Below, piece by piece: positions 14,662 to 41,715 of a stretch of DNA of 64,000 nt; position 1 is the first letter of the stretch; every line of letters starts with the position of its first letter. This DNA is from a virus. The stretch is taken from positions 1 to 64,000 of the IMG/VR virus record IMGVR_UViG_3300003873_000003. One strand, 5' to 3'. A program made the position numbers and the translations under genes. Under the pieces are notes generated by a model, which had not been told where the DNA came from, searched no databases, and was given only the letters and a program-made list of their open reading frames with translations.

Positions 14662-15696
14662 TTATGTTCCAATGTGATTGGCGTATAGTGTATGTAGGCG
14701 AGGTGTGTATCTGAAATCCTTGAATAACCCCCAAGGGGTGCCTTCATAAACAAGCTCATTAACTCGGGACTGCATCGCAAGTGCTGTATCCATAGCGAGC
14801 ATGTTAGACGCATTATGCAGGTTATCACCCTCACCCATGAATAGGATAGGAGTACCAACAACCAACTTATGTTTTAGTTCAACTTCATTAAGGCTGCTCA
14901 ACGTCTGTAGGGGAGTGCTACTGTAACGTGCATGACACCACACTGATTCAACGTAGTTAAGCAGGATGTCATCGACCCAGTTTACGTTAAATGGAGGTTC
15001 GACATAGGAAGCATCCACCACAAACTTGATTTGCGCTTTACATCCTACAATGCACGCAGCGAATTGTGTAAGGATACCAACAGATAGTGGAGGTGTGTAC
15101 TCACCGCTTGTTGGCAGCTTAGGTGAAATGCTGAACAGGAATAGAGTATCAGAATCTGTGCAGCCCTTTGAGTCACAGATTTGTTTAATGATGTTACCTA
15201 GTTGGGTTGACAACACAATAGAGCCGTTAGTCTCTATTGTAACACGGCTGGGGTTCGCTACGGCAAAGATGGCAGTCAGAATACGTCCTAAGCCGTCTTG
15301 AGATAGCATAGGCTCACCTCCAGTTATAACAATGGGGGTTGTAGGCTTACCAATTCGGGAAGAGCTATCGAGTAACTTAGAGTACATATCAGCAAGCATT
15401 GTTGATATAGTCCCTACGGTAGTCAGGTGTCGGTAACGCTTATCCCACGAGTAGGGTGTATCGCAACCTGATTTAGTTGGTGGTACGTCAGCTAACGACT
15501 TGAGTGTAGCGGGGTCGTAGTCTAGCTCTTTAGACAGACCACACCCACCAAATTCAGGGCAGGTGAAGTTACACCCCCATAGCCGTAAGAACAAGGAAGG
15601 CTCACCTGCATAGATACCCTCACCCTGTATGGAGTAAAAGGTCTCCACATACCTAACTCGTGATTCACCTAGTTCGCCTAGCACTTCTATATCCAT
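14662..15696 (-). CDS. queE: QueE-like 7-carboxy-7-deazaguanine synthase
   Basis: A radical SAM enzyme of 344 residues. YSIQGEGIYAGEPSLFLRLWGCNFTC (written here in parts: YSIQGEG, GEPSLFLRL, GCNFTC) is the QueE opening. The iron-sulfur cysteines are C42, C46 and C52, a CX3CX5C spacing instead of the usual CX3CX2C. The SAM-binding TGGEPML and ETNGS motifs follow, near residues 125-160. QueE converts 6-carboxytetrahydropterin to CDG, the third step toward preQ0. The product is about 100 residues longer than compact bacterial QueE because of inserted segments. It has its own transcription unit ended by the terminator at 14628; FolE and QueC are encoded elsewhere in the window. Confidence 0.85.
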   Translation of the reverse strand: MDIEVLGELGESRVRYVETFYSIQGEGIYAGEPSLFLRLWGCNFTCPEFGGCGLSKELDYDPATLKSLADVPPTKSGCDTPYSWDKRYRHLTTVGTISTMLADMYSKLLDSSSRIGKPTTPIVITGGEPMLSQDGLGRILTAIFAVANPSRVTIETNGSIVLSTQLGNIIKQICDSKGCTDSDTLFLFSISPKLPTSGEYTPPLSVGILTQFAACIVGCKAQIKFVVDASYVEPPFNVNWVDDILLNYVESVWCHARYSSTPLQTLSSLNEVELKHKLVVGTPILFMGEGDNLHNASNMLAMDTALAMQSRVNELVYEGTPWGLFKDFRYTPRLHTLYANHIGT

Positions 15697-26207: not shown

Positions 26208-26864
26208 TTAAGATAAGGGCTTCCTGTCAAGTCGGTCTAGCATCCCATAGTATTCAGCTTTGCAGGATGCGTTATCTAAGAAGATACCCCTAACCTCGGT
26301 CGTGGCAGTATAGCTTGGTGACTCAACTCCTCGACATTCCATGCAGGAGTGACGTGCTACGATAGACACTGCGCTACCTTGAGAAGGTATTTGGGGGAAC
26401 CAGTTAGAGGAACCGTCACGATAGAACACATCAGCAATATCTTTACACAACTGCTCTTGCAATACAGGTCGCTTCGACAATGATTTAACGATGCGTGCAA
26501 TCTTGGATAGACCCAGAACCACACCGTCCTTAGAAGGCATGTAGGCAACAGACACGTCAAGGAACACAGGTAGCAAGTGGTGAGGGCATAGACCCGAAGC
26601 TCGTATAGGGCTTTGCAGAACAATACCGTTAGTGGTGGTGTTGGCTGCGAACTCCGTGGGGAACGCCGTTGAGCATATCGTAAGCAATTCGTTACGGATT
26701 GTTTCTTTGGTTAGGCACATCTCAGACATAGCCCGAGCGCATCTCATAGGCGTATCTTCGAGGTTGTCCATCTCCGCCCTAGATAAATCACCATCACGGT
26801 TGAAGTAATCAACAATAGTTTTGTAGGCAGTAACCAGCTTGGGGTCAACGTTTTTGTTTTTCAT
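26208..26864 (-). CDS. folE: GTP cyclohydrolase I
   Basis: A 218-residue enzyme with the family signatures: GLCPHHLLPVF with the zinc cysteine and histidines (about residues 92-102), VLGLSKIARIVKSLSKRPVLQEQL, and HSCMECRGVE with the second zinc cysteine. It turns GTP into 7,8-dihydroneopterin triphosphate, the entry to both folate and 7-deazaguanine synthesis. Together with QueE and QueC in this window, the 7-deazaguanine route is the better reading. It is longer than the T-fold core because of an N-terminal extension typical of the enzyme. Confidence 0.92.
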   Translation of the reverse strand: MKNKNVDPKLVTAYKTIVDYFNRDGDLSRAEMDNLEDTPMRCARAMSEMCLTKETIRNELLTICSTAFPTEFAANTTTNGIVLQSPIRASGLCPHHLLPVFLDVSVAYMPSKDGVVLGLSKIARIVKSLSKRPVLQEQLCKDIADVFYRDGSSNWFPQIPSQGSAVSIVARHSCMECRGVESPSYTATTEVRGIFLDNASCKAEYYGMLDRLDRKPLS

Positions 26865-32340: not shown

Positions 32341-32907
32341 TTATAGTACCTTTTCTAAGCGGCGCATACACAGACGAAGCCCCTTACGTAGGTAATCGCT
32401 ATCTTCACCGAACACAAGGATATTTGCATCTGCGATGGTTTGCAGCAAAGGGCTGTGGGTTGCGATGATGAACTGCAAGTTAGGTTTACTCTCAATCAGG
32501 CGAGCCAACTCAGCGATAGCAGAATAATCCAACCCAATTTCAGGTTCATCCATAACCACGGTTGTAGGGTCTGTAATGTTGTCCAACGCTCGCATATAAC
32601 GCATAAGAGCTTCACCGTGAGATTCAGAATCGTTGGTAATCTTCTTGGATGCCTCACCATCAATGTTAGGCTTAGAGGTGATTGTTCCACTGGCGTGGTA
32701 CAGAACAGGAACTTCGCTATCACGGATAAGTTGTGCAACAGGTACAGAATCAGCACCATTGACCACACGCATGATAGCTTCAATGGAACTGCTTTTTCCG
32801 CTACCGTTGGGACCAACTAGAATGTTCACGCCTTCCATGAAGGTGACACTCGTGCAGCCACAGCGGCTAATGTAGTTATTGGCGACAAACTTTGCTCGTA
32901 AAATCAT
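32341..32907 (-). CDS. Compact ABC/SMC-type ATPase
   Basis: The start at 32907 follows AAGGAGATTTTACC. The 188-residue product is almost only a nucleotide-binding head: GPNGSGKSS near residues 33-41, then the signature-region and Walker B VVMDEPEIGLD (about residues 120-130), and the H-loop IIATHSPLL. It lacks a coiled-coil or partner domain, like AAA_21/OLD-type minimal ATPases. A role in recombination, packaging or defence is possible; no nuclease partner is visible next to it. Confidence 0.8.
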   Translation of the reverse strand: MILRAKFVANNYISRCGCTSVTFMEGVNILVGPNGSGKSSSIEAIMRVVNGADSVPVAQLIRDSEVPVLYHASGTITSKPNIDGEASKKITNDSESHGEALMRYMRALDNITDPTTVVMDEPEIGLDYSAIAELARLIESKPNLQFIIATHSPLLQTIADANILVFGEDSDYLRKGLRLCMRRLEKVL

Positions 32908-32947
32908 AGGTAAAATCTCCTTAAAATATAATGTGTTTCCGTCGGTC

Positions 32948-32957
32948 ATTTACAGTT
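32948..32957 (-). promoter_or_regulatory. AAACTGTAAATG boundary motif
   Basis: Minus-strand AAACTGTAAATGAC just after the stop at 32964; TATATT follows the TGTAAA hexamer by 18 bases, promoter-like spacing. Confidence 0.5.
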
Positions 32958-33179: not shown

Positions 33180-33636
33180 CGGTATCCGCACGGGAGTGAC
33201 CCGATGAGTCCATAGCGGTAAATACGTTTAATTCACCACGCCGCACCCCCAGCGTGGCACTTAGGGAAGTTAATGTTGGTAGCCCCTGATACGTGGTAGC
33301 CCCTGATACAGTATCCACATGCAGACTTTCTTTTTCGTCTTCATTACCATGCGTGTCATGTTTAGGAATAGGTGTGCCGCATGAACGGAGGCGGTACACT
33401 TCATCAATACAGTTCAGCAATGAATCTTGGTATATCCGCAAAGACCTCCGCAACGACTCAAAGCTATGAATCAGAGCAGCGTCAGGGGCAAAGCCTGACT
33501 CGGATAGACTCTCGACATACCCATCTAAGTGAGCTAGGTAGTCCCAAGCCTCCGCCTGTTTCTCATACAGACTAGCCTTCATCTCTCCCCAGAATGCTCC
33601 ATCTATGGTTTCATTTGCGTGTGCATCATCAGTCAT
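33160..33636 (-). CDS. Unknown protein with a P-loop-like remnant
   Basis: A 158-residue protein coupled by ATGA to the acyltransferase gene. The first 85 residues are helical. Near the end, GVRRGELNVFTAMDSSGHSRAD resembles (in parts) the RRGELxVxTGxxGxGKS opening of DnaB/KaiC-type ATPases with the Walker lysine changed to His, and the protein stops 10 residues later. It may be a decayed or chance match. Function unknown. Confidence 0.5.
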   Translation of the reverse strand: MTDDAHANETIDGAFWGEMKASLYEKQAEAWDYLAHLDGYVESLSESGFAPDAALIHSFESLRRSLRIYQDSLLNCIDEVYRLRSCGTPIPKHDTHGNEDEKESLHVDTVSGATTYQGLPTLTSLSATLGVRRGELNVFTAMDSSGHSRADTDGATDG

Positions 33637-34646
33637 AGTAACTCCTTATTGTTGGTAGGTGATGGTACTGAAAGTTGGGTTGTGAGCCCTGCACCTTTAT
33701 AGAAAGAGAAGCAAGGCTTGCTATAGAAACCCCAACTCTTCTTCCACCCATTATCGTAAGACAACGGCTCTATGCGTCTTCCTTCCGCTACAGCAAAGCA
33801 AGATTGTGTTATGTAACCATTAACAGATTTATGACGCTTATGTCGAGTCCCTGACATGAACATCGTAAGCGAGTGCTTATTGCCAATCAAGATAACAACG
33901 GCAGCAAGCTCGTTTGTGTGCCTATCTGTAACACACAAAGCGGAAACCTCGTAGGAGCAACCCTTATCAAGCAGAGCCGACACTAAAGCATCAACATCAG
34001 GGACTGCATACTGCTCGAACCTGTAAGCGTTATCACCAAAACGCTCTTTCTGCATTTCTTTAACTGCCTCAATGTGGTACAAGCTGATAGGGGAAACTTC
34101 ATAGTAATACTTCTTGTTTAACCGCTTCAAACTATTTCGGATACGCCCACGTTGTTTGTGGTTACACGCATACTGCAAGTGGGACTCCCAATCCATTTCC
34201 GAGTAGAAATGGTCAGACGAGTATTTCACAGTAACTGGTCCCGTATCCGTGTGTAGCACCATAGTGTCACCGACATTTGGCAGATTGAAGTTCGTATTCA
34301 AGAACGGTTGGTTATCAATCACCGAGCCGCTAGGAAGACTATCAGCAATAACACTCATCCAGTCCTTACTTGAGAAAGGGTGTGCAGCACTTGGGGTCAT
34401 AGAGGACAACGAAAAGTCGCTGTCAATCTCAACGTAGTTAGAATACTCACCATTGTAGCACCCATACCTGCAAAGAGGCAAGTAAACAACATCACTCACC
34501 ACTGCACATGGAGGTTCCGCAAGATGCTTATGCCAATGCTCCGTCCACTCTAGGGTGGCTTGCACAGACGGCTTCTCGATACAAGATACCCTCCTCTCCC
34601 TATCACGGATAAACTCGCTTCCAGTAATCATATCAGGCTGGGACAT
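33633..34646 (-). CDS. FemAB/BioF2-like GNAT acyltransferase
   Basis: The start at 34646 follows AAGGAGAGG. The 337-residue product has the double-GNAT look of FemAB and Acetyltransf_6 proteins: RGRIRNSLKRLNKKY opens the acyl-binding half, then KEMQKERFG, CVTDRHTNELAAVVILIGN and SYDNGWKKSWGFYSKP. Such enzymes transfer acetyl or aminoacyl groups to amines. It lies last among the modification genes and overlaps the lysine 2,3-aminomutase gene by 14 bases. Acylating a lysine-derived amine is the simplest guess, by analogy with ablA/ablB beta-lysine acetylation. Confidence 0.7.
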   Translation of the reverse strand: MSQPDMITGSEFIRDRERRVSCIEKPSVQATLEWTEHWHKHLAEPPCAVVSDVVYLPLCRYGCYNGEYSNYVEIDSDFSLSSMTPSAAHPFSSKDWMSVIADSLPSGSVIDNQPFLNTNFNLPNVGDTMVLHTDTGPVTVKYSSDHFYSEMDWESHLQYACNHKQRGRIRNSLKRLNKKYYYEVSPISLYHIEAVKEMQKERFGDNAYRFEQYAVPDVDALVSALLDKGCSYEVSALCVTDRHTNELAAVVILIGNKHSLTMFMSGTRHKRHKSVNGYITQSCFAVAEGRRIEPLSYDNGWKKSWGFYSKPCFSFYKGAGLTTQLSVPSPTNNKELL

Positions 34647-35715
34647 GTCTGACCTCTCCTTCATAGTTAATAAGCGTATTAGTATCACCATCGGTTATAA
34701 TCACCCTAGCAGGCTCTAGGGGTATCTTGCCAATGCCACCTTCACCATCCACAACAAACGTAGGCATGGCAACACCGCTGATATACCCCCTAAGTTGGCA
34801 TACGAGTGTTTGTGCATCTTGCAGACTGACTTCAAACTGTGCGTTACCTAACTCACGGTCACAGGTGTACACGTAGTAAGGTCGAATACCGATAGACACA
34901 AGGTGCATAAACAGGGTCTCAAGGGTATGGGCGTTATCGTTGATGCCTTTCAACAGCACAGTCTGACTTCCTAGTGTTACCCCTGCGTCACGCAGATTGT
35001 TTACACCATCAACAAATATCGGTGTAATCTCTTTCGGATGGTTCACATGGATATTCAAAAGCACGTTATAATCACGCAGCAACTTACAGAATGCTGGGGT
35101 TAGTCGGTAAGGATTCTGTACAGGCATCCGTGAGCTGATACGAAGAATCTTGATGTGAGGTAGTGCCCGTATCTCTTTGAAGAGGTGTTCAAGAACGGTG
35201 TCGCTCATCAACAAGGGGTCTCCGCCTGACAGAAGCACATCATTTATTTCTGTATGCTTTTGCAGGTACTCAAGTGAAGCCATGAGTTGACCTTTCGATA
35301 TGTAATCATCCTCCCCAGATACCATACGTTTGCGAGTACAGAATCGGCAGTACGCAGCGCAAGTGTTCTGAACAAGGAAAAGGACACGCTTAGGGTAACG
35401 GTGGATAATGCTCGTACCTGCGATTCGATGACGTTCCTCATTGAGAGGGTCTTCCTGCTCAACATCAGACACATCTAGCTCTTTCTTCGAGTAGAGGTAC
35501 TGCTTACGGATAGGACAGTCGGGGTCATCAGGCGACATTAAACTTAGCAGATAAGGTGTTACACCTACCTTGAGTAACCCATGTGGGGGTACATCATCAG
35601 GCACATTCGATAAGTATATGCGCAATCCATCCATACTTCGCACACTACGCTTTATCTGACTGCGCCAACTAACGTCATCAAAGCACATAGGGTCTGTAGC
35701 CATCGTTTTACTCAT
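34633..35715 (-). CDS. Lysine 2,3-aminomutase (KamA/AblA-like radical SAM enzyme)
   Basis: The start at 35715 overlaps the upstream gene. The 360-residue enzyme has RYPKRVLFLVQNTCAAYCRFC in parts, with iron-sulfur cysteines C119, C123 and C126, and LLSGGDPLLMSD for SAM and PLP phosphate. The PLP lysine is K330 in GEGGIGKIPL. Asp286 (YTCD) and Asp323 (FVVD) fall 37 residues apart and Asp323 lies 7 before the PLP lysine, exactly the spacing of Asp293, Asp330 and Lys337 in the clostridial enzyme, where the aspartates hold the lysine side-chain amine. So it should make L-beta-lysine. Rare in a phage. Confidence 0.85.
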   Translation of the reverse strand: MSKTMATDPMCFDDVSWRSQIKRSVRSMDGLRIYLSNVPDDVPPHGLLKVGVTPYLLSLMSPDDPDCPIRKQYLYSKKELDVSDVEQEDPLNEERHRIAGTSIIHRYPKRVLFLVQNTCAAYCRFCTRKRMVSGEDDYISKGQLMASLEYLQKHTEINDVLLSGGDPLLMSDTVLEHLFKEIRALPHIKILRISSRMPVQNPYRLTPAFCKLLRDYNVLLNIHVNHPKEITPIFVDGVNNLRDAGVTLGSQTVLLKGINDNAHTLETLFMHLVSIGIRPYYVYTCDRELGNAQFEVSLQDAQTLVCQLRGYISGVAMPTFVVDGEGGIGKIPLEPARVIITDGDTNTLINYEGEVRHVPA

Positions 35716-36817
35716 GGGATGAACCTTGGATGAACAGCACCAGCTCATGTGGTTCGAGAACACCACCCCAAGCTTTAGAGAAAGAAGGTGAGATAGCTTC
35801 GGTCAAGTCCTCACCCACCATAGGTACGAACTCGGGGCGAGGTAAGCCTAGGTGAGCAGAGCGACCATCTTCGTGTGCATCATTATTCGTATCAGCGGCG
35901 AACCCCATGTGAACCATAGGAAACCCATCGTACAGAGCTTCGTGGTCACGCAAAGCACGTTGCATGGAAGATACGAGTTCCCCTGTAGTCCACGGTCGAA
36001 TCTTGACAGCCTCATCCAACTTAATGTCAGCTACAACACGAGTTTCACCGTCAGACTTAGAGTGGGACTCTTCCACAACGACATTCTTATGATAAAGCTC
36101 GATGCTGTTATTGAATAGGTTACGATGTGTGACAACTGTGTACGAAACATTCAGAGTAGAACTGGAGCGTACAATGCCATCAGCGATTAAATCCTTACCG
36201 ATGTCAGTATCTGTACTCAAAGGTGTCCAGCAGTCAGACTCGTACTTATCGTGGAAGGGTGTGTACACACCGAAAGGAACGATGTTAAACTGGGCATAAT
36301 AGTCATCACCGTGCTTAACAGCATTATTAAGCAGGTTGAGGAAAAAGTCATCCATTTCAGATTCGGTCTGCAAGGCATTCAAGCTGTAATAGTACCCCAA
36401 CACTAAGTTTGTGCCTTCGGGTATAGTACAGTGAGTGGCATCGGCTGTTTCTAACCCTGCACCGTTGTCATTCAGTTCGGTTATCGTATAAGAGCTTACA
36501 TCGACTGTGGGGGAGAAGTATCCAGTGAGTTTGGAATAGTAATCCTTCCCACCAAACAACTCAACAACGTTCGCAGAGGACAGGGACTCAATGAAGGGTT
36601 TGCCAAGCTCATAAGCAGTAGTTCGCTCAAAGTCAGCACTATGGGGGAACGTTATGCCTTCAAACTCACCGTTCAACACAGTACGCAATGTTTCTCGAAG
36701 AAGGAGAGTGTCGTACAAACGAGCATGTGGGTCAGGGGCAGTAACAGCCTCGTACACGGCGGCATGGTGGTAAAGAGATTTTGCATAGTAACATAACTTG
36801 CGGTCTTTTGATTTCAT
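35708..36817 (-). CDS. Methyltransferase-like protein of the modification cluster
   Basis: A 369-residue protein. NVVELFGGKDYYSKL (about residues 82-96) occupies the place of the SAM-binding loop of a class I methyltransferase. VDVSSY could be the next acidic strand. ADATHCTIPEGTNLVLGYYYSLNAL resembles motifs II-III. The catalytic core cannot be fixed and the glycine loop is atypical, so the call is tentative. It ends in an EPHELVLF strand. It follows the ATP-grasp gene after an AAACTGTAAATG motif and overlaps the aminomutase gene by 8 bases. Confidence 0.5.
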   Translation of the reverse strand: MKSKDRKLCYYAKSLYHHAAVYEAVTAPDPHARLYDTLLLRETLRTVLNGEFEGITFPHSADFERTTAYELGKPFIESLSSANVVELFGGKDYYSKLTGYFSPTVDVSSYTITELNDNGAGLETADATHCTIPEGTNLVLGYYYSLNALQTESEMDDFFLNLLNNAVKHGDDYYAQFNIVPFGVYTPFHDKYESDCWTPLSTDTDIGKDLIADGIVRSSSTLNVSYTVVTHRNLFNNSIELYHKNVVVEESHSKSDGETRVVADIKLDEAVKIRPWTTGELVSSMQRALRDHEALYDGFPMVHMGFAADTNNDAHEDGRSAHLGLPRPEFVPMVGEDLTEAISPSFSKAWGGVLEPHELVLFIQGSSHE

Positions 36818-36900: not shown

Positions 36901-38568
36901 TTATGGCTTAGGGTTATGACCTGTAGCCCTATCCATAATACGCTCTAACATCTCACTATAGAACCCCTCAAATAAAGTACCGTTGTAAACACAGTCAGAA
37001 CAAGCAGGCTCGATGTATTCTTGGATGCGTGGGGAATTAGGTCGCATTTCAAACACTGTACTAAGAACGGCAACACGCCCACCATGCGAAAAGAACCCAT
37101 CTGATACAACATCATAGTACACGTCAATATACCGCATATCAACAGTGCCTTGCTGTAAGAACGCTCCAGTCGGTGTTCCTCTGCGTGTATCAGGGTAGTG
37201 AACTGCCTTGGGTGTGCGGAAACGGTCGGCAGCAAACGAAAGGTCGATAAGCGATAACCCAAAACTTTCAGGGTATAGCAGCGGTACTATCGTGTTGCGG
37301 GGGTCTGACCAAGAGTAAGTGTTCGGTGCGTTGTATGAATAGAAGTAGTCTAGGAACTCAAAAGGGCTTGGGTGTAAGATAAGACTGTCTTCTGTATCAG
37401 CACACTCCGAAGGCGCAGGCTCCATCTCACCAGCTTGCATTGCAATCGTTGCGAAGTTGCTATTCGCAAGTCGAGTCATCCACTCGATACCATAAGTAAT
37501 AGAATCATCGTGACCCATAATAAACGTCAAGTCTATGACCCCAGTGTATTCAGGTGCATTGTCAGCCAACCACGCACCTAACCGACCTGCAATTACCTCG
37601 GGGTACATGAACCGCTTGAGGCGTTCAGATGTAAGAGACACATGGTAAGTAGCAACATCACCAAACTTGGGACCGCAGCCGCCATACTGATTGTCATGGA
37701 ACAAACGATTATCCTCAATCACCAACACGCCATTCCCCACGTGACCTTGAGCAACAAAATAGGAAAGGCTGAACTCAATACCTTCGATAAAGTCTTGGAT
37801 GATGATGGGGTAAGGTAGACCCTTGCCGTTTTCGGGACGCAAAGTCAAAGCACCAATAGACTGACCACGAAGTTCCTTTACGTACACCTTTTTCGAGGTG
37901 TCATCAACGGCGGAGCATACACCGCACCAATCTTCCTCATCTTGAACCGTGACCGTTTTAGGTGTAGCGATACCGAGAGAACGGAACGCCGCATCGCCAA
38001 CACTACGAACTAACTCTAAGTCCCGTGCGGCTTTCGGTGTTCTGGGGAACAGGTTGTACGGCAAGGGTTTACCCTTCGCAACCTTGGAATTGGCTACGCC
38101 TTTATAGATGATGTCATCCAACCATTGATAGAACGGTTTAGTCTGCGCCTGCTGTGCAACTTGTTTGGAACGGGGCTTAGTACGACCACCTTTCGTTGCA
38201 CGGATGTCATCCATAGTTCTTGCGTGCTGGATACCACAGGCAGCAGGGTACACCACAGTCCCACTACCATTCTTCTCGGTAACAAAGTGATGTACGATAC
38301 GCAGCGTAGCTTCCAACGAAAAGGCGTACTCCGACCCACCAATGGAGTGAGGAATCAAGCAGGCAGTTGGATGGTCTGCAAAATAATCAGAGGCAGCGTC
38401 CCTGTTACCGATAACCAGTGTGTTAAACAAAGAAGGTTCAAAGGCTGTACTATCCCTCACCTGCTCCATAGACAAAGAAAAACGAGGTACAAGCAGATTG
38501 AAAGATTTGGTCTTGGGGTCACCGACCGTAATAACACGGTAGTCGTCAATAGAAAATTCGTCACTCAT
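36901..38568 (-). CDS. PurD-like ATP-grasp ligase
   Basis: A 555-residue protein. The central 200-390 region is an ATP-grasp domain: KVYVKELRGQS, IIIQDFIEGIEFSLSYFV, GGCGPKFGDVATYHV (compare the GARS GGMGAYSP loop) and GIEWMTRLANSNF in the place of the metal- and ATP-binding end. An N-terminal domain of about 190 residues and a C-terminal part of about 160 with a CSDC pair flank it. ATP-grasp enzymes join a carboxylate to an amine via acyl phosphate; PurD joins glycine. It overlaps the second QueC-like gene by ATGA. Joining an amino acid to a modified base is the likely task. Confidence 0.75.
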   Translation of the reverse strand: MSDEFSIDDYRVITVGDPKTKSFNLLVPRFSLSMEQVRDSTAFEPSLFNTLVIGNRDAASDYFADHPTACLIPHSIGGSEYAFSLEATLRIVHHFVTEKNGSGTVVYPAACGIQHARTMDDIRATKGGRTKPRSKQVAQQAQTKPFYQWLDDIIYKGVANSKVAKGKPLPYNLFPRTPKAARDLELVRSVGDAAFRSLGIATPKTVTVQDEEDWCGVCSAVDDTSKKVYVKELRGQSIGALTLRPENGKGLPYPIIIQDFIEGIEFSLSYFVAQGHVGNGVLVIEDNRLFHDNQYGGCGPKFGDVATYHVSLTSERLKRFMYPEVIAGRLGAWLADNAPEYTGVIDLTFIMGHDDSITYGIEWMTRLANSNFATIAMQAGEMEPAPSECADTEDSLILHPSPFEFLDYFYSYNAPNTYSWSDPRNTIVPLLYPESFGLSLIDLSFAADRFRTPKAVHYPDTRRGTPTGAFLQQGTVDMRYIDVYYDVVSDGFFSHGGRVAVLSTVFEMRPNSPRIQEYIEPACSDCVYNGTLFEGFYSEMLERIMDRATGHNPKP

Positions 38569-39278
38569 AGCTCAACTCCTAGTTCTTTGAAAAGTTCATC
38601 CACTTCGATACAAATGGGGCATTCATGGCAAGGTTCAGCATACTCGCAGCTTTGAGTACGCGCAAAGTCAATACCCATTGAAATGCCAAACTGAATAACC
38701 TCACGCTTCGTTAGGGACTCAAGCGGTGCTGTGACCAAGAAAGGCTCTGCGAAGGATGAAAAGATAGTGTCGTTCACCTGTGTATGGATTTGGCGGCAAG
38801 CATCCCGACCACGCATTAGGTTCAAGTCTGTGTTCATACCCAATTCAGATTGGTTGGATTGGAACCCCGTAGCTAAGCGGTTACAGCCGTTATAAGAGGC
38901 AACCGTGGCTGCCATGAGCATGAACAAAGGGTTGCGCCCATTAAGGAATCCCATCTCGGTGTCGGTCAGTACACAACAGTCATCACGATGGACACCTTTC
39001 TTTTGCAACTCGTAGTCTTCTTGGAAAGTAGGAACAGAGGTCAACTTACTGTAGTCCCAATCAATAACGTGCGTCTTAACTGTGCAACCGCAGTAATTTG
39101 ACAGGAAGTTTGCGTGCCAGTTCATATTGCGTTTCATGGTTTCAAAGTTCGCATTGCCTCCATTCACTAGGATTAACATGCCTAGTGAGCCAGCCTCTGC
39201 CAACATGTACGCAGCTACAGTGCTGTCGATACCTCCACTGTAAAGTACGGCTTGTTTCTTCTCAATCGGTTTTGTCAT
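38565..39278 (-). CDS. Second QueC-like (ExsB family) PP-loop enzyme
   Basis: The start at 39278 follows AAGGAGATG. The 237-residue product has the PP-loop SGGIDS at residues 14-19, NGRNPLFMLMAATVAS in the place of the QueC RNGVMLSVA segment, and a zinc-type cysteine set CEYAEPCHECPIC near the C-terminus. It is a clear QueC relative but well diverged from the QueC encoded next to it. QueC adenylates the carboxylate of CDG to make an amide and then a nitrile; a paralogue could activate the same group for another amine, or act on the modified nucleic acid. ATGA-coupled to the ATP-grasp gene. Confidence 0.8.
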   Translation of the reverse strand: MTKPIEKKQAVLYSGGIDSTVAAYMLAEAGSLGMLILVNGGNANFETMKRNMNWHANFLSNYCGCTVKTHVIDWDYSKLTSVPTFQEDYELQKKGVHRDDCCVLTDTEMGFLNGRNPLFMLMAATVASYNGCNRLATGFQSNQSELGMNTDLNLMRGRDACRQIHTQVNDTIFSSFAEPFLVTAPLESLTKREVIQFGISMGIDFARTQSCEYAEPCHECPICIEVDELFKELGVEL

Positions 39279-39303
39279 AACATCTCCTTGTTTTGTAGTC
39301 ACA

Positions 39304-39313
39304 ATTTACACTT
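39304..39313 (-). promoter_or_regulatory. AAGTGTAAAT boundary motif
   Basis: Minus-strand AAGTGTAAATTGTGAC touching the queC stop and only 25 bases before the next start, which is short for a classical promoter plus leader. Confidence 0.45.
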
Positions 39314-39993
39314 TACCCATCTTCATACAGCGTAGGGTCAACAATGCCTGCCAACGAAAAGGCTAAACGGCGTTCCGTACAAGTACCGCACTTACCACAG
39401 TGGGTCACCCCACCTTTATAGCAACTGTATGTTTCTGCGAACGGTACACCCAAGCTTGCACCGATAGATACAATTTCGTTCTTAGTCAACCCACCGAAGG
39501 GGCTTACAACTTCAACACCACCGTATGTGCCTAATGAAGCAGCCTTACTCATAGCAGTTGTGAACTCGGTACGGCAATCGGGGTAGATGGCGTTGTCTCC
39601 TTTATGCGAGGCTAGGTAAACATGGTTAAGCTTACGGGCTTCTGCGATAGCTACAGCCACAGACAACATCACACCGTTACGGAAAGGAACCACAGTGCTA
39701 CGCATCGTAGCATCCTCGTAGTGACCTTCAGGGACGTCACCTGCACCCGAAATCAAGGAACTCAGCTCACCTAAGCTGCATTGGTTGAAGACGTTATGCA
39801 AAGGTATGACGAGGTGCTCCGTGTTAGTGATAGAGCAGTTACGAGAGGCACATTCGAGTTCTCGCTCATTGTGATTTGAACCGTAGTCGAACGACACCGC
39901 TAGAGCAGGCTTCATTTGGTACAACAGAGTGGTACTATCTAGACCCCCACTGTAGATTAAGATACCAGTATTTTCGAGAATGTTAGGTTTCAT
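39313..39993 (-). CDS. queC: 7-cyano-7-deazaguanine synthase
   Basis: A canonical 226-residue QueC: PP-loop SGGLDS at residues 15-20, FDYGSNH, VPFRNGVMLSVAVAIA, then FGGLTKNEIVSIG and the zinc site CYKGGVTHCGKCGTCTERR (written here within limits). It converts CDG to preQ0 with ATP and ammonia. The start overlaps the ArcS-like stop as ATGA, so the two are cotranslated. With FolE and QueE it supplies preQ0; QueD is not visible here. Confidence 0.92.
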   Translation of the reverse strand: MKPNILENTGILIYSGGLDSTTLLYQMKPALAVSFDYGSNHNERELECASRNCSITNTEHLVIPLHNVFNQCSLGELSSLISGAGDVPEGHYEDATMRSTVVPFRNGVMLSVAVAIAEARKLNHVYLASHKGDNAIYPDCRTEFTTAMSKAASLGTYGGVEVVSPFGGLTKNEIVSIGASLGVPFAETYSCYKGGVTHCGKCGTCTERRLAFSLAGIVDPTLYEDG

Positions 39994-41138
39994 TTTGAAT
40001 CTCCATTTGAATCATTTACTTTCAGAATACACCGCTTTAAGGAGTACAAACGGTCAGGGTCAAGCAGGTCAAGATAGTCAGGATAAAACTTCACAGGATT
40101 TACATATTGTACTTCGGGCTTATACCCATCAGGCAAGTCACGTAAGGCGGCTTCAATAGCTTGATTGTAATAGTCACAGTAAGAAACAATATGCACAGGT
40201 TTATGTTTGATGATATACTTCCTAACCTGCTGCATAGCACGCCAGTCATTAGGCACGCCACTATCGTACATAGGTGCTACACCCCAGAGGTCTTGAGGTA
40301 CGATACCTAGAACACCAGTAACGATAGCAATAGTCCAAGTATCAATCCAGTCCTCATCAGGGGCTTCACAAGAAGCGAGTGTATCCATGACGGCTTTGTG
40401 CATAGGGGAAGGGTACGGCTTATCCGCAGCACATGGAACGAGTAGCAGATTCGAGGTTGGATTTGAAGGGCTATAATCATCTAAGTCCTCCAAGTAGTCC
40501 AGTACAGTTGGTCGGTGGAACCCTCCGTTGTTAGTCACCACGAAAGACTTATCATGCAACCCTACACACCAATGAGGCTGAAAGCCTTGCACATCAAGCT
40601 TCCACAAGAAATCCGTAAGCTCTGGGCGCATAGAGGCAGACCACTCGACAGCCGAGCGTGTAACCTCCAAATCAGTGAAAGTCAACGCCACGTCCTCCTC
40701 AAATTCTACAGTAGGTAACTGCACTTCAACCCCCATGTAACGCAAAAGCATACACCAAGAAGAGGGAGGATACTTCGCAATGACTTTAGGTGCATCTTTT
40801 AAGTCGCCCGTACATTGGGTCGGTAAGAGAGGAGCGAGCGTAGAAACGTACCCATCCTCATCCATGTTAAAGTCCCGCCATGTAAAGTTTGGGTTGGCAA
40901 GCTGGAACAGCTTTTTGAACAACGTCATGTAGCCTTGATAGGTGTCCTCATACGACTCGCCTTTATTAGGCGCACTCAAGTAAATGGTGTAAGTCTCTTG
41001 TGGGTCTTCGTCAGACAGACCTAGTGTGTGGTTACAAGGGTAACCAAACAGCTCACCGTGGATACAGGGGACTCCACTGACCTTTACGTGTGAGCTAAGG
41101 TCTTCGGGTGTAGGTGACGGTAGTTCTTGTTCATCCAT
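39990..41138 (-). CDS. ArcS-like (archaeosine synthase core) protein
   Basis: A 382-residue protein, first gene of the cluster. Residues 231-350 match the ArcS catalytic domain: LLLVPCAADKPYPSPMH (residues 231-247), where PCxxxKPY with K240 equals the active motif, then VTGVLGIVPQDLWGVAPMYD in the place of the ArcS SPLGVVPREL and PAAHYD segments. In archaea this domain attaches lysine to the nitrile of preQ0 in tRNA. The first 200 residues are unlike archaeal ArcS and I see no TGT domain. Start at 41138 with GAGGAGAG. It may add lysine or a relative to a 7-deazaguanine base. Confidence 0.75.
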   Translation of the reverse strand: MDEQELPSPTPEDLSSHVKVSGVPCIHGELFGYPCNHTLGLSDEDPQETYTIYLSAPNKGESYEDTYQGYMTLFKKLFQLANPNFTWRDFNMDEDGYVSTLAPLLPTQCTGDLKDAPKVIAKYPPSSWCMLLRYMGVEVQLPTVEFEEDVALTFTDLEVTRSAVEWSASMRPELTDFLWKLDVQGFQPHWCVGLHDKSFVVTNNGGFHRPTVLDYLEDLDDYSPSNPTSNLLLVPCAADKPYPSPMHKAVMDTLASCEAPDEDWIDTWTIAIVTGVLGIVPQDLWGVAPMYDSGVPNDWRAMQQVRKYIIKHKPVHIVSYCDYYNQAIEAALRDLPDGYKPEVQYVNPVKFYPDYLDLLDPDRLYSLKRCILKVNDSNGDSK

Positions 41139-41283: not shown

Positions 41284-41715
41284 TTAGCGAAGCTTACGGG
41301 ACTTCGGTTGCTTAGAAGCGTGACCTTGCTTCTTAGGTGCATCGGGTGCATCAGGTGCATCGGGTGCATCAGGTGCATCGGGTACATCAGAATTTACCCC
41401 TTCTTGACCGTCAACACCAGTATCCTGTGTTGAACCCTCGGTAGTAGACTCGGATTGGGCTTCCTTCCGAGACTTAACCAACGCAGTCAAAGCGTCCAAC
41501 GCATCTTGAGTAAGATGTGCAACACGAGGTAAGACAAACCGAATAGATGCAGCTAAGTAAGAATCCTGCGATACCTTACCCCACACGCCATCTAACTTGC
41601 CTAATGGGTACTCACCCAAGCTCTTGAGAGCCTTCTGACCTTCAAGGAACATGGTGTTTACTTCATGTTCCGAATTGCCTTCGTTATCAATAATACCTTT
41701 TCCTTCTTCACTCAT
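41284..41715 (-). CDS. Protein with DAP tripeptide/tetranucleotide-type repeat tail
   Basis: A 143-residue protein. Residues 30-85 are folded and helical (DSYLAASIRFVLPRVAHL). A low-complexity tail follows with five to six (PDA) repeats and a basic end (KQPKSRKLR). The start follows AAAGGAGG. It is the last gene before the terminator, after the giant ATPase. Function unknown. Confidence 0.6.
   Translation of the reverse strand: MSEEGKGIIDNEGNSEHEVNTMFLEGQKALKSLGEYPLGKLDGVWGKVSQDSYLAASIRFVLPRVAHLTQDALDALTALVKSRKEAQSESTTEGSTQDTGVDGQEGVNSDVPDAPDAPDAPDAPDAPKKQGHASKQPKSRKLR
41335..41385 (-). repeat. Short tandem repeat encoding Pro-Asp-Ala
   Basis: About five copies of a 9-base unit in alternating TGATGCACC and CGATGCACC forms; a slippage-prone tract within the gene at 41284. 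Confidence 0.7.

Follow-up and report, generated by a model that had tools for sequence, protein, structure and literature searches.

The window analysed here, a stretch of 64,000 nucleotides covering positions 1 to 64,000 of the IMG/VR virus record IMGVR_UViG_3300003873_000003, encodes a protein built around the catalytic core of archaeal ArcS (DUF5591), in an operon that also carries genes for two QueC proteins, an ATP-grasp-like ligase and a lysine 2,3-aminomutase. In the explanation that we consider best, and to which we give even chances, preQ0 is supplied through DpdA and the ArcS core then adds lysine or beta-lysine to it. The fuller scenario, in which guanine in the phage DNA is replaced by a 7-deazaguanine amidine carrying lysine or beta-lysine, possibly extended by the ATP-grasp protein, and in which the ArcS core has been freed from tRNA-binding domains, is more tentative, and we rate it as somewhat doubtful.

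The ArcS-core gene (39990-41138, minus strand) starts with ATG, a short way downstream of a Shine-Dalgarno-like AAGAGGAGAG, and encodes 382 residues. The preliminary description had placed the gene correctly, without giving a strand, and had recognized in it the ArcS-like motif PCAADKPY (residues 235-242, including K240). In the Pfam scan, the DUF5591 profile PF17884 matches residues 216-313 (E = 2.8e-8, 34.2 bits, cut-off 26). The NCBIfam ArcS model NF040592 matches residues 161-330 (E = 4.6e-12); its full-length equivalog cut-off of 440 bits is not reached, the protein scoring 45.3 bits with only residues 161-330 aligned. The comparison with the ArcS core at the HMM level that had been proposed earlier was also carried to the profile-profile level: using hhalign, the profile of 13 phage relatives was matched to that of 62 archaeal ArcS sequences with a probability of 99.8 and E = 7.5e-27, and the phage core alone with a probability of 98.6 and E = 1e-15. 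A phmmer search of the PDB with the window protein gave chance-level matches only. Taken together, the similarity of the window protein to ArcS is far beyond chance.

The PCAADKPY motif (40413-40436, minus strand), which contains C236 and K240, is invariant in 13/13 phage relatives. It is followed by LGIVPQDLW...PMYD (LGIVPQDLWGVAPMYD, residues 277-292, 40263-40310, minus strand), exactly as reported previously, and G278, P281, P289, Y291 and D292 of this segment are common to archaeal ArcS. Nine residues are shared by the 13 phage and 62 archaeal sequences, namely, P235, C236, K240, P241, Y242, H247, P281, Y291 and D292. A DNA pattern for PCSA.KPY served to collect the archaeal set and thereby forces the invariance of P235, C236, K240, P241 and Y242 in archaea, whereas H247, P281, Y291, D292 and any other shared residues are unforced. 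Among the matches listed for this pattern, 80/80 loci were archaeal by title.

The fold of the core points in the same direction. In the AlphaFold2 model (mean pLDDT 73.7 overall, mostly 82-95 in the core) residues 213-378 (40005-40502, minus strand) are most similar to the archaeal protein AF0587 (PDB 2q07; VIA-align Z = 15.4, rmsd 3.0 over 134 residues), and the same structure was recovered by a sequence profile (E = 6.4e-6). Thus, the predicted structure is not unrelated to ArcS, which the preliminary description had named as the outcome that would speak against its assignment. The second-best match of the core was uracil-DNA glycosylase X (Z = 8.7). A uracil-DNA glycosylase function was considered and rejected, because the corresponding scores (Z = 8 to 8.7) are far below that of 2q07 and at the warning level of the tool. 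In our PDB searches the AF0587-type protein was the only archaeal ArcS structure found.

Outside the core, the window protein has no PF01702 (TGT) match in Pfam and no PUA domain: DUF5591 was the only domain found at E-values of up to 1, and the protein ends after the core. In the same scan, a control archaeal ArcS yielded both DUF5591 and PUA. The previous statement that an ArcS core is present here in a phage protein lacking a recognisable TGT domain is therefore borne out, and extends to PUA. By contrast, the view that the N-terminal 230 residues are an unknown replacement of the archaeal domains stands only in part. Residues of about 49-212 (40503-40994, minus strand) are conserved in 13/13 phage relatives, including all those from IMG/VR, with the motifs YEDxY, PxSW, RPExVDALWKxD and FVVTNNGxFHR, and residues 161-215 lie inside the NCBIfam ArcS match; only residues 1-48, modelled with low confidence, look private and disordered. 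In the joint alignment, residues 49-212 align colinearly with the latter half of the archaeal TGT-like domain. When compared alone with the archaeal TGT-like part, the N-terminal part gave a weak match (E = 0.005, the best shuffled control reaching 0.025), which is suggestive of homology, and a remnant of the TGT domain is possible. Fold searches led to no assignment: for residues 45-216 the best Foldseek hits, TIM-barrel enzymes, had a non-significant E = 0.11, and the best VIA match of the N-terminal region was T4 RNase H (Z = 3.6).

Between the ArcS-core gene and the gene upstream lies a terminator-like hairpin (41269-41230, minus strand), which makes ArcS-core the first gene of the operon. 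The upstream protein (41284-41715) contains PDAPDAP repeats, a weak PHROG match being its only family match. At its other end, the ArcS-core gene overlaps queC by 4 nt (ATGA), so that both its position at the start of the cluster and its coupling to queC agree with the earlier reading. QueC itself (39313-39993, minus strand) is a canonical preQ0 synthase (PF06508, E = 8e-52; TIGR00364 above cut-off). It is followed by a second, divergent QueC paralogue (38565-39302, minus strand; PF06508, E = 1.7e-17), which according to the alignment retains the PP-loop and four cysteines and lacks the YPDC substrate motif; this paralogue may act on a different carboxylate. Next come an ATP-grasp-like ligase of 555 aa (36901-38568, minus strand), a protein of 369 aa (35708-36817, minus strand), the lysine 2,3-aminomutase (34633-35766, minus strand) and a protein of 352 aa (33633-34691, minus strand). 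Most of these neighbouring genes overlap or lie only a short distance apart. The ATP-grasp assignment comes from the family profile, which matched glycinamide ribonucleotide synthetase (2xcl) with E = 9e-7, the Pfam match of the single protein being weak; homologues occur in Vibrio and Pseudomonas putida phages. The 369-aa protein is perhaps methyltransferase-like: it is weakly similar to proteins of Pseudomonas phage Lauda, one of which has a weak Methyltransf_31 match, and its methyltransferase identity was not confirmed. The 352-aa protein has weak similarity (BLAST E = 0.002 over 53 aa; 14-21% identity in the alignment) to a GNAT/FemX-like protein that occurs in the clusters of the Vibrio, Pseudomonas and Xanthomonas phages. 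No significant PDB match was obtained with profiles of this protein, of the 369-aa protein or of the hyp116-type neighbours. Near the end of the cluster lies a gene for a small AAA/SMC-like ATPase (32341-32949; PF13304, E = 3.5e-16).

The aminomutase belongs to the KamA/AblA family of radical SAM enzymes (TIGR03820, E = 3.5e-99; 2a5h, E = 9.5e-83) and keeps the CxxxCxxC motif together with the equivalents of D293, D330 and K337. In lysine 2,3-aminomutase, D293 and D330 bind the substrate lysine, and K337 binds PLP. Since these residues are kept, free lysine is the likely substrate of the phage enzyme.

The complete virus record comprises 118,360 bases, and its terminase, DNA polymerase, NAD-dependent ligase and topoisomerase II genes indicate a large tailed phage. 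FolE, QueE, QueC and DpdA are all encoded in this one record: GTP cyclohydrolase I (FolE) at 26208-26864 (minus strand; PF01227, E = 6.4e-35), 7-carboxy-7-deazaguanine synthase (QueE) at 14662-15696 (minus strand; NCBIfam QueE, E = 3.7e-12) and, outside the window, a TGT-family DpdA at record positions 75566-77215 (PF01702, E = 4.9e-7, above cut-off) with 33% identity to the DpdA of Vibrio phage GR7B. The TGT function is thus neither replaced nor missing, and resides in a separate protein. Neither a PF01242 match nor an ORF with the HGH motif of QueD was found in the 118-kb record, which is possibly incomplete. RaSEA (TIGR01210) was found neither in this record, perhaps a fragment, nor in four complete phage genomes; among the controls, the TIGR01210 cut-off was passed only in the three archaea that also have ArcS. 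There are no tRNA genes in the window.

Close relatives of the window protein among 50,697 phage records are confined to Vibrio phages GR7B and GR11A (36-38% identity). A search of IMG/VR with the single sequence was empty, and a three-member profile was needed to collect ten further distinct relatives. queC lies within a few kb of ArcS-core in 10/10 of the latter, and in three of them (L006, L007 and L010) ArcS-core directly adjoins a DpdA-like gene. In another IMG/VR relative, FolE is split by an intein that carries an endonuclease domain of the HNH type (L009, 13311-14648). The second QueC was found among phage records only in GR7B and GR11A, and also beside ArcS-core in two IMG/VR relatives (L013 and L016). 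The aminomutase shares an operon with ArcS-core in three phages (the window phage, GR7B and GR11A) and was absent from the IMG/VR relatives examined. When IMG/VR was scanned for the aminomutase, two contigs were found that are unrelated and lack the cluster genes, and the aminomutase of a huge phage (L051) has no cluster genes within 10 kb. P. putida phages such as Lauda encode aminomutase, ATP-grasp and QueC together, with no DUF5591 match. In Lauda and eight relatives (L050, 1209-13092) this region holds the aminomutase, the ATP-grasp protein, two QueC-like proteins and several proteins without an assigned role. Xanthomonas and Erwinia phages have a degenerate ArcS relative without the PCx3KPY motif. 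Their 7-deazaguanine cluster is found in Xanthomonas phage PhiXhv-12 (L052, 6724-16681) and its relatives PhiXhv-15, PhiXhv-16 and Erwinia phage Ep032. In PhiXhv-12, Gat-QueC and the degenerate ArcS-like protein are accompanied by a leucyl/phenylalanyl-tRNA transferase (PF03588, E = 2e-29), by GNAT proteins, and by a PIG-L deacetylase and a MocA oxidoreductase; one further gene carries the annotation glycoside transferase. Perhaps the cluster produces aminoacylated or glycosylated DNA bases.

ArcS enzymes from three archaeal species use free L-lysine, which they attach to preQ0 in tRNA, and the resulting lysine adduct is cleaved by RaSEA to give archaeosine; the 5'-phosphorylated preQ0 nucleoside is a substrate, the free base is not (PMC11298593). 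Because the free base is not used, the phage ArcS core should act after DpdA. By analogy, DpdA would exchange guanine for preQ0 in phage DNA, and the stand-alone core would then act on preQ0 in the DNA (or on the nucleotide), adding an amine across the nitrile to form an amidine. The amine would probably be lysine, or beta-lysine that the aminomutase of the operon makes from lysine. As no RaSEA was found, such an adduct would persist, either staying on the DNA or being built on by the ATP-grasp protein, and might serve against restriction.

As to the residues involved, the preliminary description proposed that K240 holds preQ0. The lysine is indeed present and invariant in the phage family, and is a candidate for such a role; the ArcS of Vibrio phage nt-1 has an arginine at this position and keeps C236, and our literature search retrieved no paper assigning preQ0 binding to the motif lysine. 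As the catalytic residue, C236 is just as plausible. In QueF and QueF-L a cysteine attacks preQ0 and an aspartate is used (PMC5485725), which makes C236 and D292 reasonable candidates, by analogy only: a thioimide on C236 would be the probable intermediate, with D292 or K240 acting in acid/base catalysis or binding. Free lysine is what ArcS uses to form the known preQ0-lysine adduct (PMC11298593); the adduct test suggested for a K240 mutant would therefore mix two things.

The addition of lysine or beta-lysine is favoured by the homology and fold of the ArcS core, the nearby QueC, the adjacency to DpdA in three relatives, the presence of FolE, QueE, QueC and DpdA in one record, the kept aminomutase residues and the absence of RaSEA from the five phages searched; against it stand the P. 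putida phages, whose aminomutase and ATP-grasp occur with no DUF5591 match, the ammonia, Gln or Asn reported as donors for Methanocaldococcus jannaschii ArcS, the missing aminomutase in the IMG/VR relatives examined and QueD, which was not found in the record. An improbable alternative is that the ArcS core makes dG+ directly in phage DNA from ammonia, glutamine or asparagine, with the aminomutase and the ATP-grasp protein serving another pathway. Such donors, NH4+, Asn or Gln, are reported for Methanocaldococcus jannaschii ArcS, but three other archaeal ArcS do not use them (PMC11298593). No RaSEA would be needed, and dG+ is a known phage base that occurs in traces, as do dPreQ0 and dADG, in the DNA of nt-1, a phage having an ArcS homologue; yet dG+ amounts there to only about 0.02% of G (PMC6884629), and the presence of a lysine enzyme in the operon also argues against this route.

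Equally unlikely, in our estimate, is that the aminomutase and the ATP-grasp protein form a branch of their own, ligating beta-lysine to an amine on a modified base or elsewhere, while the ArcS core works separately, for example in amidation to dADG or dG+. The P. putida phages show that the aminomutase need not feed ArcS and that a lysine branch can stand without an ArcS core, although these phages could use an unrecognised transferase, and in the window phage and the two Vibrio phages all of these genes share one operon. That the target is tRNA rather than phage DNA we regard as very improbable: archaeal ArcS does act on tRNA (PMC11298593), but the window protein has no PUA domain, the window has no tRNA gene, and a DpdA-type partner, of a family acting on phage DNA (PMC6884629), is encoded in the same record or in adjacent genes.

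ArcS in stand-alone form has been described in a phage before, in 2019, for nt-1, the only ArcS phage analysed at that time; the bases measured were dPreQ0, dADG and dG+. Hutinet et al. 2019 called it unclear what such homologues do in phages, and made no mention of lysine (PMC6884629). The phage ArcS core is thus known, and the variant bearing lysine enzymes appears to be undescribed in the searched literature; our search of the open-access literature for phage 7-deazaguanine with aminomutase returned nothing relevant. The new part is the neighbourhood, namely, the aminomutase with intact substrate residues, the ATP-grasp protein and the divergent second QueC, a set that recurs in GR7B and GR11A and partly in Pseudomonas phages. 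Most of the novelty lies in the aminomutase and ATP-grasp genes, which were absent from the preliminary description. ArcS is now known as a lysine transferase, which makes a lysine adduct a definite product that can be tested for and seems so far to have escaped examination; the lysine aminomutase encoded in this operon fits with such a product. If real, the adduct would extend the known 7-deazaguanine modifications of phage DNA by an amino-acid branch, of use in studies of restriction evasion and in DNA labelling, and would provide the smallest ArcS for mechanistic work in a family whose sole archaeal structure in our PDB searches is of the AF0587 type.

With archaeal ArcS the window protein shares the catalytic core, the PCx3KPY motif and R209, H247, T274, G278, P281, P289, Y291 and D292. 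It differs in size (382 aa versus about 450-720), in having no recognisable TGT-like, pre-PUA or PUA domain and no RaSEA partner found, and in its presumed substrate, DNA instead of tRNA. The aminomutase resembles 2a5h and EpmB of EF-P beta-lysylation in its radical SAM motif, PLP lysine and both substrate aspartates; unlike them, it is phage-borne and located in a 7-deazaguanine operon, where no EpmA-like enzyme was seen. Like the window protein, nt-1 ArcS (VPFG_00169, 226 aa; L049, 8416-9096) is a DUF5591 core standing on its own, and it is encoded in a preQ0 cluster of the phage, next to FolE, QueC and DpdA2. Its motif, LCTTTRPY, has R for K240, and W replaces H247, while C, P, Y, Y291 and D292 are kept; the conserved phage N-terminal region is absent, and so is an aminomutase. 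A search with the window protein alone gave no BLAST-level similarity to nt-1, though both match DUF5591, and given the motif arginine, the reported base content of nt-1 may not transfer to the KPY type. In vB_VcorM_GR7B and GR11A, as in the window phage, ArcS-core, two QueCs, ATP-grasp and aminomutase stand in one operon, with DpdA elsewhere; the proteins, annotated there as hypothetical, are 36-38% identical to those described here, and other accessory genes lie between QueC and ATP-grasp.
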